38,941 bases of DNA from positions 1 through 38,941 of the forward strand of contig JACPBB010000004.1 in NCBI GenBank assembly GCA_016180525.1. The letters run 5' to 3'. The notes beneath the pieces were generated by a model, which worked only from the letters and a program-made list of their open reading frames with translations, made no database searches and had not been told where the DNA came from. The DNA is from Parcubacteria group bacterium. Its GTDB lineage: Bacteria > Patescibacteriota > Minisyncoccia > Phycocordibacterales > UBA2135. A program made the translations under genes and the position numbers. Positions 15,669 through 24,816 of the stretch are shown here, one piece after another. Position 1 is the stretch's first letter. The number at the start of each line of letters is the position of its first letter.

Positions 15669-15695
15669 GCCCCATCGCTTTTGGGGCTTTTTTTA
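15667..15695 (+). terminator. Intrinsic terminator ahead of alaS
   Basis: AAGCCCC (15667-15673) pairs with GGGGCTT (15683-15689), followed by a T-run. It separates the unknown gene from alaS. Confidence 0.85.
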
Positions 15696-15709
15696 CGCTT
15701 GATTTCTTA

Positions 15710-15715
15710 TATAAT
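15710..15715 (+). promoter_or_regulatory. -10 box of alaS, leaderless arrangement
   Basis: TATAAT ends 7 bases before the ATG at 15723, so the expected transcription start coincides with the start codon. A terminator lies right before it, so alaS must be started here. Confidence 0.65.
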
Positions 15716-15722
15716 AAACCTC

Positions 15723-17639
15723 ATGACATCAGAAGAAATACGAAAAAGATTTCTTTCTTTTTTTAAAGAGAGAGGCCACGCCATAATTCCATCGGCATCT
15801 TTAGTGCCCGAAAATGATCCTACAACGCTTTTTACCGGCTCAGGCATGCAGCCGCTTTTGCCATATCTTTTAGGAGAGAAGCACCCGCAAGGAACCAAAT
15901 TGGCAGATTCCCAAAAATGTTTTAGGACTCAGGATATTGAAGAAGTGGGCGATAATCGCCATACGACCTTTTTTGAAATGCTCGGGAACTGGTCTCTTGG
16001 AGATTACTGGAAAGAAGAGCAGATTCAATGGTTTTTTGAATTTTTAACAAAAGAAGTAAAAATCCTGCCTGAAAAACTCTGGGTTACTTGTTTTGACGGA
16101 GATGAAACATTGGGATTGTCAAAAGACACTAAATCCGCTGAAATCTGGAAAAAATTAGGCATACCGGAAAGCCGCATCAGGTTTTATGGAGCGAAAAAGA
16201 ATTGGTGGAGTCGCTCCGGAGTACCTGAAAATATGCCAGCAGGGGAGCCCGGCGGCCCTGATTCTGAAGTATTTTATGAATTCACACAGGTTGCGCACGA
16301 CCCTAAATTTGGAGCGGAGTGCCATCCGAATTGTGATTGTGGAAGATTTCTTGAAATTGGAAACTCTGTTTTTATGCAATATGTGAAAAAAGAGGACGGT
16401 TCATTTGAACTTCTCCCGAAAAGAAATGTTGATTTTGGCGGAGGACTTGAGCGTATTGCGGCAGCATCAAACAATAACAATGATATTTTTCTTGTAAATT
16501 ATAACTATATTATTAAAGGGATTGAAAGAGTAACCAAAACAAAGTATGAGGACAATTTACAGGCGTATCGCATTATTGCAGATCATATAAAAGCAGCAGC
16601 GTTTCTTATAGGAGACGGTGTGCTCCCATCAAATACAGATAAGGGTTATATACTCCGCCGTCTTATCCGTCGGGGGGTTAGATATAGTGATATTCTTGGT
16701 ATTGATAAAGAATTTCTATCTACGCTTGTAGATTTTGTTATTGAAAAATATAAAGATGTATATTCGAATTTATCTGAAAGAGCGCCTATTATAAAAAATG
16801 AAATTAAAAAAGAAGAAGAAAAATTTCGAGACACCCTTAGTAAGGGCCTTGCAGTCTTAAATAAAGAATTAAAAGCACAAATTGTGAAGCGCGGAGAAGC
16901 GGTTGAGGCACAAAAAATAAGCCTTATACAGGGTCCGGGAAATGTTCAAATATCGGATTACCGACCGCCAAATTCAATGGTTACTGGTAGATGGTTGTTT
17001 GATTTTTATCAGACGTTTGGCTTCCCTGTCGAAATGATTATAGAAGAATTAAAATCTCAAGGTTACTATTTCAGTCCGAAAGAATATAAAAGACTTGCTA
17101 ATGAATTTAAAGAGGAATTTGAAAAACACAAAGAAGTTTCTCGTGCCGGTCTGGAGAAAAAATTTAAAGGCGGGTTGGCAGACACAAGTGAGAAAACAAC
17201 AATGCTTCATACCACGACACACCTTATGCTCGCAGGACTACGGAATTTTTTAGGAGAGCACGTGCATCAGGCGGGCTCAAATATTACTCCAGAGAGAACA
17301 CGGTTTGATTTTAGTCATCCTGAAAAAGTTGGGAGAGACATTCTTGATAAGGTAGAAAAATATGTAAATGAGGCTATTTCAAAAAAATGCGATGTTATTA
17401 TTGAACAGATGCCTAAAGCAGAAGCGCAGAAAAAGGGAGTTGAAGGAAGCTTTTGGGAACGGTACCCCGATATGGTTAACGTCTATATGGTGAAATGCGA
17501 AGATGGGACAATATATTCACAGGAATTATGCGGAGGCCCTCACGTAAAAAATACCAAAGATATCAAGGGAGTCTTTAAAATAGTAAAAGAAGAAGCGGTT
17601 TCAGCGGGAGTGCGGCGTGTTAAGGCGGTACTTGAATAA
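15723..17639 (+). CDS. alaS: Alanyl-tRNA synthetase without the C-terminal domain
   Basis: The 638-residue enzyme charges tRNA(Ala). The class II core is complete (EIRKRFLSFFKERGH, FTGSGMQPLLPY, RTQDIEEVGDNRHTTFFEMLGNW; motif 3 at FGGGLERIAA). The tRNA-recognition helices follow, then the editing domain with metal ligands HTTTH and CGGPH. The protein ends right after the editing domain (GVRRVKAVLE). Usual bacterial AlaRS is about 870 residues and ends with the DHHA1/C-Ala part, which is absent here. Editing of Ser/Gly mischarge should be kept while tRNA elbow binding may be weaker. The start is set by TATAAT seven bases ahead. Confidence 0.95.
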   Translation: MTSEEIRKRFLSFFKERGHAIIPSASLVPENDPTTLFTGSGMQPLLPYLLGEKHPQGTKLADSQKCFRTQDIEEVGDNRHTTFFEMLGNWSLGDYWKEEQIQWFFEFLTKEVKILPEKLWVTCFDGDETLGLSKDTKSAEIWKKLGIPESRIRFYGAKKNWWSRSGVPENMPAGEPGGPDSEVFYEFTQVAHDPKFGAECHPNCDCGRFLEIGNSVFMQYVKKEDGSFELLPKRNVDFGGGLERIAAASNNNNDIFLVNYNYIIKGIERVTKTKYEDNLQAYRIIADHIKAAAFLIGDGVLPSNTDKGYILRRLIRRGVRYSDILGIDKEFLSTLVDFVIEKYKDVYSNLSERAPIIKNEIKKEEEKFRDTLSKGLAVLNKELKAQIVKRGEAVEAQKISLIQGPGNVQISDYRPPNSMVTGRWLFDFYQTFGFPVEMIIEELKSQGYYFSPKEYKRLANEFKEEFEKHKEVSRAGLEKKFKGGLADTSEKTTMLHTTTHLMLAGLRNFLGEHVHQAGSNITPERTRFDFSHPEKVGRDILDKVEKYVNEAISKKCDVIIEQMPKAEAQKKGVEGSFWERYPDMVNVYMVKCEDGTIYSQELCGGPHVKNTKDIKGVFKIVKEEAVSAGVRRVKAVLE

Positions 17640-19551: not shown

Positions 19552-19624
19552 GCCGCCTTAGCTCAGTTGGTAGAGCAACGGTTTTGTAAACCGTAGGTCC
19601 GGAGTTCGAGTCTCCGAGGCGGCT
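19552..19624 (+). tRNA. tRNA-Thr (anticodon UGU)
   Basis: All arms fit: acceptor GCCGCCT/AGGCGGC, D-arm GCTC..GAGC with AGTTGGTA loop, anticodon stem ACGGT/ACCGT with loop TTTGTAA (anticodon TGT), and T-arm CGGAG/CTCCG with loop TTCGAGT. The discriminator base is T and the CCA end is not encoded. It reads Thr ACN codons. The cognate enzyme, thrS, lies 4 kb downstream on the other strand. Confidence 0.96.
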
Positions 19625-19664: not shown

Positions 19665-20804
19665 ATGAAGAAAAATAAGATTATTGAAATTGATTTCCCT
19701 GAAGAGAGGAAATTGTATCAAGAACTGAAACAGAGAAATGATTCGGAGGCAAAAAGACTTCTTCGTTTTTTAAATATGCCTGATTTGTCGCGAACCAAAG
19801 ATAGTCCTTTAAAAGAGGTTGTTACCCGAGCTTTGCAAGTCACGAGTCTTAAAGGCTTTGACATAATAAAAATTCCGGAAATTGTTCCTACACATGTTTT
19901 GTTTGATCTTTTCAATATGCCACCCGGACATCCTGCACGTAGTAAGTCAGATACCTATTATATAAACGATGAATATGTATTACGAACTCACGACACGGTC
20001 TTTTGGTATTACTATTTAAATCATCCGGATATTAAAAAAAGAATTGAAAATAAAGAAACACTTGGAGTGGTCTGTTTCGGCAAAGTGTACCGAAAAGATG
20101 AAATAGACCGAAGTCACATGAACGTGTTTCATCAGTTTGGCGGCTTATACATAGGGCCGGATGACAAAGTTATTATAACTCCGGATGATTTAAAAAGTGC
20201 GCTTTCAGAAATAGCAAAAAGTATTTTTGGTGATGTTAATTTTCGTTTTTATGACCACACATTTCCGTATACCGACCCTAGTTTTGAAATGGAAGCGGAA
20301 ATAAATAATCAGTGGATAGAAATTTTAGGTTCCGGCATGGCACGAAAAAGCGTACTTTCAAATTTTGGCTTAACGGGCTATCACGGCTGGGCATTCGGCT
20401 TTGGACTAGAACGTCTCGCGATTATGAACATGAGTTTGCCCGACATTCGACTTCTCTGGTCGGATGACCCACGTATTAGAAAACAACTGCATCTTGGTAA
20501 TACATATGTTCCGGTAAGCAAATATCCGCCTATCACTCGCGATATATCGTTTATAGTTCCAAAAAGTTTTGTACCAAATAATTATTTTGACTTGATACGA
20601 GACCTTGGCGGGACGTTGGTAGAAGAAGTAAAACTTCTTGATTCATATGAAAATCCTGAAAAATTTGGGAAAGATAAAATAAGTTACACATATCGGATAG
20701 TGTATCGCAGTAATGACAGGACATTGCTTAGTAAGGAAGTGGACAAAATTCAAGACGAAATTTACAAACAAACAGCGGTTCAATTTAACGCCGAGTTGCG
20801 TTAG
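19665..20804 (+). CDS. Single-chain phenylalanyl-tRNA synthetase (PheS core fused to FDX-ACB)
   Basis: The 379-residue protein joins the class II PheRS catalytic domain to a ferredoxin-like anticodon-binding domain. The core shows FNMPPGHPARSKSDTYY (83-99), motif 2 FGKVYRKDEIDRSHMNVFHQ (138-157), and motif 3 GFGLERLAIM (245-254). From about 286, KYPPITRDISFIVP and YTYRIVYRSNDRTLLSKEV form the FDX-ACB domain. That domain normally ends the bacterial beta chain; the joined form is the layout of mitochondrial PheRS (FARS2), which works as one chain. IPDIRLFW-type LPDIRLLWSDD is also mitochondrial-like. The usual N-terminal coiled coil of PheS is missing. No pheT is in the window. It follows tRNA-Thr by 40 bases. 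Confidence 0.9.
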   Translation: MKKNKIIEIDFPEERKLYQELKQRNDSEAKRLLRFLNMPDLSRTKDSPLKEVVTRALQVTSLKGFDIIKIPEIVPTHVLFDLFNMPPGHPARSKSDTYYINDEYVLRTHDTVFWYYYLNHPDIKKRIENKETLGVVCFGKVYRKDEIDRSHMNVFHQFGGLYIGPDDKVIITPDDLKSALSEIAKSIFGDVNFRFYDHTFPYTDPSFEMEAEINNQWIEILGSGMARKSVLSNFGLTGYHGWAFGFGLERLAIMNMSLPDIRLLWSDDPRIRKQLHLGNTYVPVSKYPPITRDISFIVPKSFVPNNYFDLIRDLGGTLVEEVKLLDSYENPEKFGKDKISYTYRIVYRSNDRTLLSKEVDKIQDEIYKQTAVQFNAELR

Positions 20805-20939: not shown

Positions 20940-23105
20940 ATGCCCCTCAAAAGACTAAAAATAAGAACAGAAAAAGACCGCAATCCTCTGCCTTCTAAAA
21001 AGGAGAAAGTAAAAACAGAAACAAAAAAGAAGAAATCCGTACCCATTCCGCAAAAAAAAGAAGCCGTAACAAAAGCAGAGTCACGCAAAAAAGGAGAATA
21101 TAAAGCTGCCGACATCACGGTGCTTGAAGGCCTTGAGCCGGTACGAAAGCGTCCTGGTATGTATATTGGCACAACAGGCACGGAAGGGCTTCATCATTTA
21201 CTATGGGAGACTTTTGATAACTCTCGGGATGAAGCAATGGGAGGGTTTGCAAACCGCATAGAAATTGTACTCTTGCCCGACCACATGGTGCGCGTTGCCG
21301 ACAACGGACGCGGTATTCCTGTTGATATCCATAAACAAACAAAAGTATCGGCGCTGCAAACAATTATGACCACGCTTCACTCTGGAGGAAAATTTGGAGG
21401 AGAAGGATACAAAATCTCAGGAGGTCTTCACGGCGTTGGTATCTCTGTCGTAAACGCTCTGTCTGTGTACACAAAAGCAGAAGTACATCGCGACGGAGGA
21501 AAATACCTGCAGGAATATAAACGCGGAAAACAACAAGCAAAAGTTAAAAAAGTCGCGTCTTCAAAATTAAACGGAACCATTATCACGTTTGAGCCTGATC
21601 CGGAGATATTTAAGGACAGAACATTAAATTGGAAAAAAATTGTTGATCACATTCGACAACAAGCATATTTAGTCAAAGGAATGTCTGTTACTATTATTGA
21701 TGCTCGAGAACATAAAAACAGCATTAATCTGAATGATATTTTTTATTTTAAAGAATTAGAGTTGGAAGTACCCGAGTTTTCTTTTTGTTTTGAGGGGGGT
21801 ATTAGTTCAATGGTTAAGTTTTATAACCAGGCCCTTAAACCAATTCATAAAAATGTATTTTATATTGAAAAAACAATTGATACCGTTGCTGTTGAAGTAG
21901 CGCTTCAATATGTTGACGACATATCATCTCGTGAAATTGCGTTTGCGAACAATACATATAACCAAGAGGGTGGCACGCATATGACGGGATTTCGCACGGC
22001 GCTTACCAGAACTCTTAATGATTACGCAAAAAAGAATAATCTCCTAAAGGGCGAGGATGACTCACTCTCGGGAGATGACGTGCGTGAGGGTCTTACTGCC
22101 GTTGTGTCGGTCAAGTTGCGCGAGATTCAATTTGAAGGGCAGACGAAAGGGAAACTTGGAAGCGTTGAAGCCCGCGGAGCCGTTGAAAAGGTCTTTTCTG
22201 ACGGTTTTAGCGCGTTTCTAGAGGAGAAACCAGAGGAAGCGCGCATAATTATTGGTAAGGTGGTTTTAGCTCTAAAAGCGCGAAAAGCCGCAAAAGCTGC
22301 TAAAGATAGCGTCTTGCGCAAAGGAGCTCTTGAGGGATTTACCTTACCGGGGAAATTAGCTGACTGCCAAACGCGCGATGCAAGCGAGGCTGAGCTTTTC
22401 ATTGTAGAAGGAGACTCTGCTGGAGGCTCTGCAAAAACTGGCCGTGATAGGAGGGTCCAGGCGATACTGCCACTTCGTGGAAAAATTTTAAATGTTGAGC
22501 GCGCGCGGCTTGATAAAATGCTTGCTTCAACCGAAATTAAGGCACTTGTGGTGGCGCTCGGAACAGCAATTGGGGACACATTTAACATTGAAAAATTACG
22601 CTATCATAAAATTATCATTGCGACAGACGCGGATGTTGATGGAGCACACATCAGAACATTATTACTTACCTTATTCTATAGATACTTTAAGCAATTGATT
22701 GAAGTAGGAAATATTTATATTGCAACTCCACCACTCTATAAAATTAAAACGGGGAAAGACGTGCGTTATGTATATACGGAAGCGGAAAAAACAAAAGCGA
22801 TTGGTAAAGATACCGACAGTCTTCTTATTGATGACAGCGTAAACGAAGACGAAGAAATTAATGAGGAGATGGAAAAAACAAAAACTAAAAAAGTAAGTAT
22901 TCAGCGCTATAAGGGTCTTGGAGAAATGAATCCGGAAGAGCTGTGGGAGACAACCATGAATCCAGTAACTCGTACATTAAAACAGGTTACTATTGAAGAC
23001 GCCAAAGAGGCGGACAAAGTATTTGACATCCTCATGGGCACTGATGTTCCGTCTCGTAAAACATTCATTCAGACACACGCCAAGGAAGCAGAACTGGATA
23101 TATAG
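20940..23105 (+). CDS. gyrB: DNA gyrase subunit B
   Basis: The 721-residue ATPase subunit of a type II topoisomerase shows the GHKL nucleotide pocket (DNSRDEAMGG, DNGRGIPVD, SGGLHGVGISVVNAL), the transducer domain, the TOPRIM core with EGDSAGGSA (490-498) and DADVDGAHIRTL (about 562), and the C-terminal YKGLGEMNPEELWETTM. Gyrase, rather than topoisomerase IV, is suggested by KTGRDRRVQAILPLRGKILNVE, but ParE cannot be fully excluded. Residues 1-57 are an added, very Lys-rich and probably disordered tail absent from ordinary GyrB (which starts near YKAADITVLEGLE). The gene has its own promoter and hairpin leader. Confidence 0.93.
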   Translation: MPLKRLKIRTEKDRNPLPSKKEKVKTETKKKKSVPIPQKKEAVTKAESRKKGEYKAADITVLEGLEPVRKRPGMYIGTTGTEGLHHLLWETFDNSRDEAMGGFANRIEIVLLPDHMVRVADNGRGIPVDIHKQTKVSALQTIMTTLHSGGKFGGEGYKISGGLHGVGISVVNALSVYTKAEVHRDGGKYLQEYKRGKQQAKVKKVASSKLNGTIITFEPDPEIFKDRTLNWKKIVDHIRQQAYLVKGMSVTIIDAREHKNSINLNDIFYFKELELEVPEFSFCFEGGISSMVKFYNQALKPIHKNVFYIEKTIDTVAVEVALQYVDDISSREIAFANNTYNQEGGTHMTGFRTALTRTLNDYAKKNNLLKGEDDSLSGDDVREGLTAVVSVKLREIQFEGQTKGKLGSVEARGAVEKVFSDGFSAFLEEKPEEARIIIGKVVLALKARKAAKAAKDSVLRKGALEGFTLPGKLADCQTRDASEAELFIVEGDSAGGSAKTGRDRRVQAILPLRGKILNVERARLDKMLASTEIKALVVALGTAIGDTFNIEKLRYHKIIIATDADVDGAHIRTLLLTLFYRYFKQLIEVGNIYIATPPLYKIKTGKDVRYVYTEAEKTKAIGKDTDSLLIDDSVNEDEEINEEMEKTKTKKVSIQRYKGLGEMNPEELWETTMNPVTRTLKQVTIEDAKEADKVFDILMGTDVPSRKTFIQTHAKEAELDI

Positions 23106-23574: not shown

Positions 23575-24816
23575 TTACTTTCTTTCTTTGATTTCTTTTT
23601 TGATTTTGGAGAGGAGGTTATCTATCACAAGTATTTCTTTTTTCCCGCTTCGGCCTTCAAGGGTTGTCGTGTTTGACTCTACTTCTTTATCCCCCACAAC
23701 GGCCAAGTAGGGTATTTTTTGCTGTTTGGCGGCTCTAATTTTTTTACCAAGCGTTTCATTTTCATTATAAAATTCAACCCTAATGCCATCGGCGTGCAAC
23801 TTCTCATATACTTCTTTGGCAAACTTTTCATGCTTTTCTCCGATGGGGAGAATCGCAACTTGAACGGGGGAGAGCCAGAGGGGAAAAGCGCCTCCATAAT
23901 GCTCAATAAGAAACGCCATGATGCGTTCAATGGCACCAATTGAAGAGCGGTGCACGACAAAAGCGCGTTTTTTGCTTCCGTCTTCTCCAATATAGGAAAG
24001 GTCAAAACGTTCTGGCATGCAAAAATCATATTGCACGGTAAATGCCGTATCTTCTTTACCGTTTGCATTTTTCATCTGAACATCAATTTTTGGTCCGTAG
24101 AATGCCGCTTCATTTTTTACTTCAACAAATTTATTTTTTTTCTTTTCAAGTAGATCACGAAGTAATGATTCGCCTTTTTCCCACGCCTCATCATTTTTAT
24201 AATATTTTTCCGTATTTGTCCTGTCTCCAAGCGAGAGGCGATAGTGATATTCTTTTCCATATTGCAGACCAAAAACGTGAGTGACATATTCAATCAAATC
24301 AAGCGCCCCGCCAATTTCTTCCACAGCCTCCTCTTCACTTTTGCAAATAATGTGCGCATCGGCAAGAGAAAACGTGCGGACTCGCTGAAGCCCCATCAAT
24401 TCTCCGGATTGTTCATAGCGATATAGTTTTGCAATTTCTGCGGTACGAATAGGAAGCTCGCGGTAACTATGCGGTTTTCGTAAGTAGAGCTGAAAATGAT
24501 GCGGGCACGTCATCGGCCGGAGCATGAATTTTTCATCATCAATCTCAATCGGCGCGTACATTGAGTCCTGATAGTGCGGATAGTGGCCAGATTTAATATA
24601 TAAATCAAGTTTTGCGATATCGGGAGTATAGACATGCTGATATCCGCGGCGAATTTCCTCATCAACAATAAATCGCTCAAGCTCGCGTCGTATCGCCGCG
24701 CCCTTGTGCGTAAAAAGCGGCAGTCCTTTGCCGACCGTCTCGTCAATATAGTAAAGGTCTAACTGTTTCCCTAAAATTTTATGGTCTCTCTCCGAATGAG
24801 ATTCATCATTATTCAT
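23575..24816 (-). CDS. thrS: Threonyl-tRNA synthetase lacking TGS and editing domains
   Basis: The 413-residue enzyme begins directly at the catalytic core (RDHKILGKQLDLYYIDE). Motif 2 (EIAKLYRYEQSGELMGLQRVRTF) and motif 3 (HRSSIGAIERIMAFL) are clear, and the zinc ligands of ThrRS are present as C in MTCPHH, H in ADAHIICK and H in VVHRSS. An HGTP anticodon domain follows (PVQVAILPIG to the end). Normal bacterial ThrRS is about 640 residues with N-terminal TGS and Ser-editing domains; both are absent. Similar loss is known in some mycoplasmas and archaeal ThrRS pairs. The ATG follows TATTAT after 7 bases, so there is no T-box leader. Confidence 0.95.
   Translation of the reverse strand: MNNDESHSERDHKILGKQLDLYYIDETVGKGLPLFTHKGAAIRRELERFIVDEEIRRGYQHVYTPDIAKLDLYIKSGHYPHYQDSMYAPIEIDDEKFMLRPMTCPHHFQLYLRKPHSYRELPIRTAEIAKLYRYEQSGELMGLQRVRTFSLADAHIICKSEEEAVEEIGGALDLIEYVTHVFGLQYGKEYHYRLSLGDRTNTEKYYKNDEAWEKGESLLRDLLEKKKNKFVEVKNEAAFYGPKIDVQMKNANGKEDTAFTVQYDFCMPERFDLSYIGEDGSKKRAFVVHRSSIGAIERIMAFLIEHYGGAFPLWLSPVQVAILPIGEKHEKFAKEVYEKLHADGIRVEFYNENETLGKKIRAAKQQKIPYLAVVGDKEVESNTTTLEGRSGKKEILVIDNLLSKIKKEIKERK

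Follow-up and report, generated by a model that had tools for sequence, protein, structure and literature searches.

Bacterial phenylalanyl-tRNA synthetase (PheRS) is, in textbook terms, a large four-part proofreading enzyme that is assigned to all bacteria. A 38,941-nucleotide stretch of patescibacterial DNA (hereafter the window) holds an ORF that raises the question of whether a bacterium can charge tRNA-Phe with a single chain. A 2010 review described the heterotetrameric organisation of prokaryotic PheRS as kept in all known species and called the monomer mitochondrial (PMC3275996). AARS Online lists a one-chain PheRS-M, with FARS2 as the human gene (PMC11580382), and a protein-family study of the CPR gives PheRS as two subunits (PMC6744442). 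NCBI's model for the 'PheS-related mystery ligase SrmL' (NF051887) shows that bacterial one-chain PheS-like proteins had already been noticed, with no function assigned. Literature searches (subscription papers and preprints aside) turned up no account of a one-chain enzyme serving as the sole bacterial PheRS, or occurring in Patescibacteria.

One-chain architecture and predicted fold

The ORF is open throughout and encodes 379 amino acids (Table 1). Domain profile searches of the protein placed the class II PheRS core (PF01409) at residues 41-274 (E 6e-53) and FDX-ACB (PF03147) at exactly residues 285-379 (E 1.1e-22), as a first-pass annotation had proposed from the letters alone. A single polypeptide with the class II core followed by FDX-ACB is the architecture of PheRS-M, or FARS2. 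Upstream of the core, the AlphaFold model has a stretch of about 40 residues that forms a pair of short helices, not the PheS coiled coil. The annotation had noted that this coiled coil is missing, which holds, but the feature does not set the one-chain form apart: in two-chain relatives from the same order, a PheS of about 230-277 aa that lacks it is also normal. Its reading of the motif words as FARS2-like was borne out, with LPDIRLLWSDD in the window against IPDIRLFWCED in human FARS2, and SKYPPITRDISF against SKYPAVINDISF. The class II motif residues R143, E146, H151 and R250 and the GWAFG strand vary little or not at all among 69 homologues, and Ala243, which aligns with Ala294 of E. coli PheS, is Ala in 68 of them. 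The gene is under purifying selection, with dN/dS values of 0.05-0.11 among four close homologues.

Table 1. Features of the one-chain PheRS gene and the borders of its slot (window coordinates)
Feature	Position	Strand	Basis or remark
tRNA-Thr(UGU), upstream border of the replaced slot	19552..19624	+	conserved in G000-G003 and G039
pheRS, one-chain phenylalanyl-tRNA synthetase, 379 aa	19665..20804	+	domain matches, curated profiles, structure comparison
N-terminal segment, aa 1-40, with short helices at 12-23 and 27-37 and the motif LNMPDLS; coiled coil absent	19665..19784	+	model, alignment
Class II PheRS catalytic core, aa 41-274; motif-2 stretch VYRKDEIDRSH, motif-3 FGLER, Ala243	19785..20486	+	PF01409, alignment
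Short linker, aa 275-284; fusion point same as in FARS2 and SrmL	20487..20516	+	alignment
FDX-ACB anticodon-binding domain, aa 285-379, counterpart of PheT domain B8	20517..20801	+	PF03147; TIGR00472 positions 692-798
gyrB, downstream border of the replaced slot	20940..23105	+	74-80% identity to same-family genomes

The protein passes none of three curated NCBI cut-offs: it scores 225.9 bits with pheS_mito (TIGR00469, cut-off 258.35), 224.3 bits with SrmL (cut-off 300) and 169.1 bits with PheS alpha (TIGR00468, cut-off 237). TIGR00469 gave no match above its cut-off in the genomes of 60 relatives, and four true SrmL members score 360-524 bits with NF051887. An AlphaFold model built from the 69 homologues (pLDDT 92.9) superposes on human mitochondrial PheRS from residue 15 to residue 379 (351 residues, 2.5 A, Z 38), and thus has the mitochondrial fold over its whole length as far as the prediction goes. 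Against bacterial PheS, the core alone was matched (about 218 residues, Z 27). Human mitochondrial PheRS provides the closest solved structures both by sequence and by fold.

Absence of PheT and of the B3/B4 editing domain

The window's genome (G000) is assembled in 5 contigs totalling 945,633 bases and is 97% complete. Profile searches of this assembly found no B3/B4 editing domain, hence no separate PheT chain of the kind that marks the bacterial PheS-PheT enzyme; the full PheT profile (TIGR00472) matched only the FDX-ACB C-terminus of the one-chain gene itself. The proposals that no pheT lies elsewhere and that the beta-chain editing site is lost therefore stand for this genome. A PF01409 search found no second PheS; its one further match, weak and split (C3:92892, a 492-aa ORF, E 7e-5), is not full length and was set aside, and our guess is that this ORF is a lysine-type class II synthetase. 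No tRNA-Phe(GAA) was found among the 41 tRNA matches in the genome or by pattern search, which may reflect an assembly gap, an intron or a divergent gene. Taken with the 97% completeness, this indicates that a few genes are missing or unrecognised in the assembly.

Our survey covered Patescibacteria, with a threshold of over 370 bits against a one-chain family profile for counting a genome in the phylum sample as a carrier; the relatives from the genome scan were the best 80 of 146. The one-chain PheRS occurs in 33 of 380 phylum genomes (about 9% of the sample), and B3/B4 was found in none of these carriers versus 327 of the 347 other genomes (Fisher p 5e-34). Within the order, 52 of 297 genomes (17.5% of the sample, roughly one in six) carry it. 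The 48 order carriers outside the phylum sample also had no B3/B4, while the two-chain control G027 was positive in the same run, bringing the total to 0 of 81 distinct carriers. A missing piece of one assembly therefore cannot account for the absence of PheT. The one-chain PheRS is a recurrent trait of Patescibacteria and not that of a single odd cell, and it and B3/B4 are mutually exclusive in the sampled genomes. Both forms are found within single genera: one-chain G191 beside two-chain G412 in g61, G492 beside G027 in g27, and G619 and G642 beside G281 and G394 in g63. Viral contigs gave 32 pattern matches, none of them a relative.

Some loci in the survey depart from these two forms. In G305 and G032, a PheS of about 250 aa adjoins a PheT of 432-439 aa without B3/B4 (L139 1177-3206 and L149 716-2715, respectively); this short PheT is a second route to editing loss. 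One one-chain gene is broken into two overlapping frames by a frameshift or an assembly error (L152; G310, C6:9800-12200). Another contig has two adjoining one-chain genes on opposite strands with equal scores (G517:C23, 7805-8932 and 8975-10102), perhaps an assembly palindrome.

The B3/B4 site of the PheRS beta chain hydrolyses Tyr-tRNA(Phe). With the whole beta chain absent this site is gone, and no recognisable PheRS domain is left to edit Tyr-tRNA(Phe). The window carries a second synthetase without an editing domain, a ThrRS of only 413 aa (23575-24816, minus strand) that has the core and the anticodon domain and lacks TGS and the SAD editing domain; relatives G001, G003, G191 and G412 have short ThrRS frames as well (418-436 aa). 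The AlaRS of the window (15681-17639, plus strand; 652 aa) is below the usual length and retains its SAD domain. Such cells may be able to tolerate lower fidelity, as the editing-less ThrRS would suggest.

Replacement of pheS-pheT in its chromosomal slot

The gene order in the window's family (f1) is rpsB, tsf, tRNA-Thr(UGU), PheRS, gyrB. Between tRNA-Thr and gyrB, the window's genome and G003 have the one-chain gene, as does G002 (seen from tsf onward), and G001 has pheS-pheT. Within this family, the one-chain PheRS replaces pheS-pheT in place. Elsewhere, the one-chain gene runs opposite to gyrB, both in G039, where it lies between tRNA-Thr and gyrB, and in G034, G191 and one Nomurabacteria locus, where it adjoins gyrB. 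The inverted orientation suggests that these are separate replacements.

The window's GyrB is most similar to that of its own family (G003 80%, G002 75%, G001 74%), followed by other genomes of the order (67-71%), Giovannonibacteria L043 (65%) and Doudnabacteria L049 (about 60%). Its PheRS is 80% identical to that of L043, 74% to that of L049 and 67% to that of G003. In a tree of 90 one-chain enzymes, the window PheRS nests with Giovannonibacteria (support 98/91), starred branches part it from G002 and G003, and none of 200 bootstrap trees unites the three same-family copies. Since it groups with Giovannonibacteria and not with its own family, the window PheRS was acquired by horizontal replacement from a Giovannonibacteria-like lineage. 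Contamination of the contig was ruled out, as its gyrB, rpsB and tsf resemble those of same-family genomes and keep their order. These comparisons of sequence and gene order show that the one-chain PheRS moves horizontally among Patescibacteria and displaces pheS-pheT, and that a four-chain synthetase is swappable for one chain by horizontal transfer, even inside a genus.

We consider it very probable that the one-chain gene is the cell's only PheRS, that it replaced pheS-pheT horizontally and that it works without Tyr-tRNA(Phe) editing. The carriers are all uncultured organisms known from assemblies, and we describe the working of the enzyme by analogy with mitochondrial PheRS. The class II core would activate phenylalanine and load it onto tRNA-Phe, with the anticodon read by the FDX-ACB domain fused at its C-terminal end, so that one chain, presumably a monomer, could take over the work of four chains in other bacteria. 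The gene came from the Giovannonibacteria-like lineage and took the place of pheS-pheT between tRNA-Thr and gyrB. An active-site alanine, Ala294 in E. coli, governs the selection of Phe over Tyr. With the B3/B4 site gone, accuracy would have to rest on the amino-acid pocket, in which the Ala aligned to E. coli Ala294 is retained, and fidelity is probably reduced. A role in Phe-over-Tyr selection is described for the conserved active-site Ala of PheRS (PMC7373986).

Origin and comparison with known systems

We built a deep tree from a joined alignment of the core and FDX-ACB, with FARS2 represented by one human sequence taken from PDB alignments. In this tree, a 100/100 branch separates all two-chain enzymes, patescibacterial ones included, from the one-chain enzymes, SrmL and FARS2. 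The split between two-chain and one-chain forms is retained with the core alone (100/98). The one-chain enzymes of Patescibacteria and SrmL make up separate clades (97/98 and 100/100, respectively), the window PheRS lying outside that of SrmL.

The first-pass annotation had suggested a link to mitochondrial PheRS. In structure this link holds, through the whole-length fold match; by sequence it is suggestive, and the tree does not place FARS2. One reading is that the patescibacterial enzyme and FARS2 descend from one fused ancestor, mitochondria having received their PheRS from such a bacterium, or the reverse. Domain order is the same and the fusion border near-identical in FARS2, SrmL and the patescibacterial enzymes, which makes a common origin attractive. 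The match of the predicted model, the Trp in GWAFG common to FARS2 and the patescibacterial enzymes, and the mean identity of FARS2 (39% to one-chain enzymes, 33% to two-chain PheST and 27% to SrmL) point the same way. However, the one FARS2 sequence can be held with one-chain enzymes (p-AU 0.45) or with two-chain enzymes (p-AU 0.39) and stands with SrmL, unsupported at 32/4, in the best tree, and the diagnostic columns split 9 to 7. We therefore regard shared ancestry as possible and hold it tentatively. It concerns origin only and is compatible with the one-chain gene being the cell's sole PheRS. A more specific version, in which an old bacterial one-chain PheRS circulates in Patescibacteria and eukaryotic mitochondrial PheRS descended from it by transfer, seems unlikely to us; if true, the 'mitochondrial' form would be a bacterial invention that has repeatedly ousted the four-chain enzyme.

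Alternatively, FARS2, SrmL and the patescibacterial enzyme could be independent fusions, in keeping with the long branches that separate the three groups without resolution. We find this doubtful given the shared domain order and border and the strong support for a branch with all three on the same side, to which long branches could nevertheless contribute.

Two further alternatives concern the gene itself. It could be an accessory ligase of the SrmL type, with the true pheST in an assembly gap; its NF051887 score is near its pheS_mito score, and real SrmL genes were found on plasmids and a huge phage. This is very improbable, as the score is below the SrmL cut-off, SrmL is a separate clade, none of the 81 carriers has B3/B4 and the window gene occupies the pheS-pheT slot. 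An in-place deletion within the lineage's native pheS-pheT, fusing the core of the first to the end of the second, would leave exactly the domains present in that same slot, but we give it hardly any credence, as the PheS and the PheT ends of Patescibacteria fall with the remaining two-chain enzymes, across the 100/100 branch from the one-chain forms, the core alone gives the same split and the nearest kin of the window copy are in other families.

The SrmL genes lie on a 634-kb uncultured phage genome (L135 5992-7071, LR745206) and on Glutamicibacter and Azotobacter plasmids (L133 5974-7092 and L134 5815-6927). In addition, a 97%-complete patescibacterial genome (G017) lacks B3/B4, and the only PheRS-like gene found in it is an SrmL (L150 316-1539, 360 bits against the cut-off of 300). 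SrmL may be the PheRS of G017, in which case the mystery ligase would gain a function.

Across 81 sampled bacterial genomes, no PheRS type other than the one-chain form is detectable, and the domain that edits Tyr-tRNA(Phe) is wholly lost. The carriers offer bacterial material for testing the origin of mitochondrial PheRS, and a compact bacterial PheRS for study and engineering.

Among known systems, FARS2 (PheRS-M, TIGR00469) is likewise one chain of a PheRS core with a C-terminal FDX-ACB domain, without a beta chain or an editing domain. The patescibacterial enzyme differs in being bacterial, chromosomal and the cell's only PheRS, and in human FARS2 motif 2 is followed by an insertion of roughly 30 residues that the window PheRS does not have. 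SrmL, too, joins a PheS core to FDX-ACB in a single bacterial chain; the fusion border is the same and a DLS/DLT motif close to the N-terminus is similar, but SrmL copies are on plasmid or phage and probably accessory, and identity is about 27%. The PheS/PheT heterotetramer has a homologous core and B8/FDX-ACB domain and is encoded at the same chromosomal position in sister genomes, whereas the window form lacks PheT, B1-B7, the editing site and the coiled coil. Mycoplasma PheRS is a further case of Tyr-tRNA(Phe) editing lost in a reduced bacterium; there, PheS and PheT are retained with a degenerate editing site, whereas the window's genome lacks the whole beta chain (PMC7373986).
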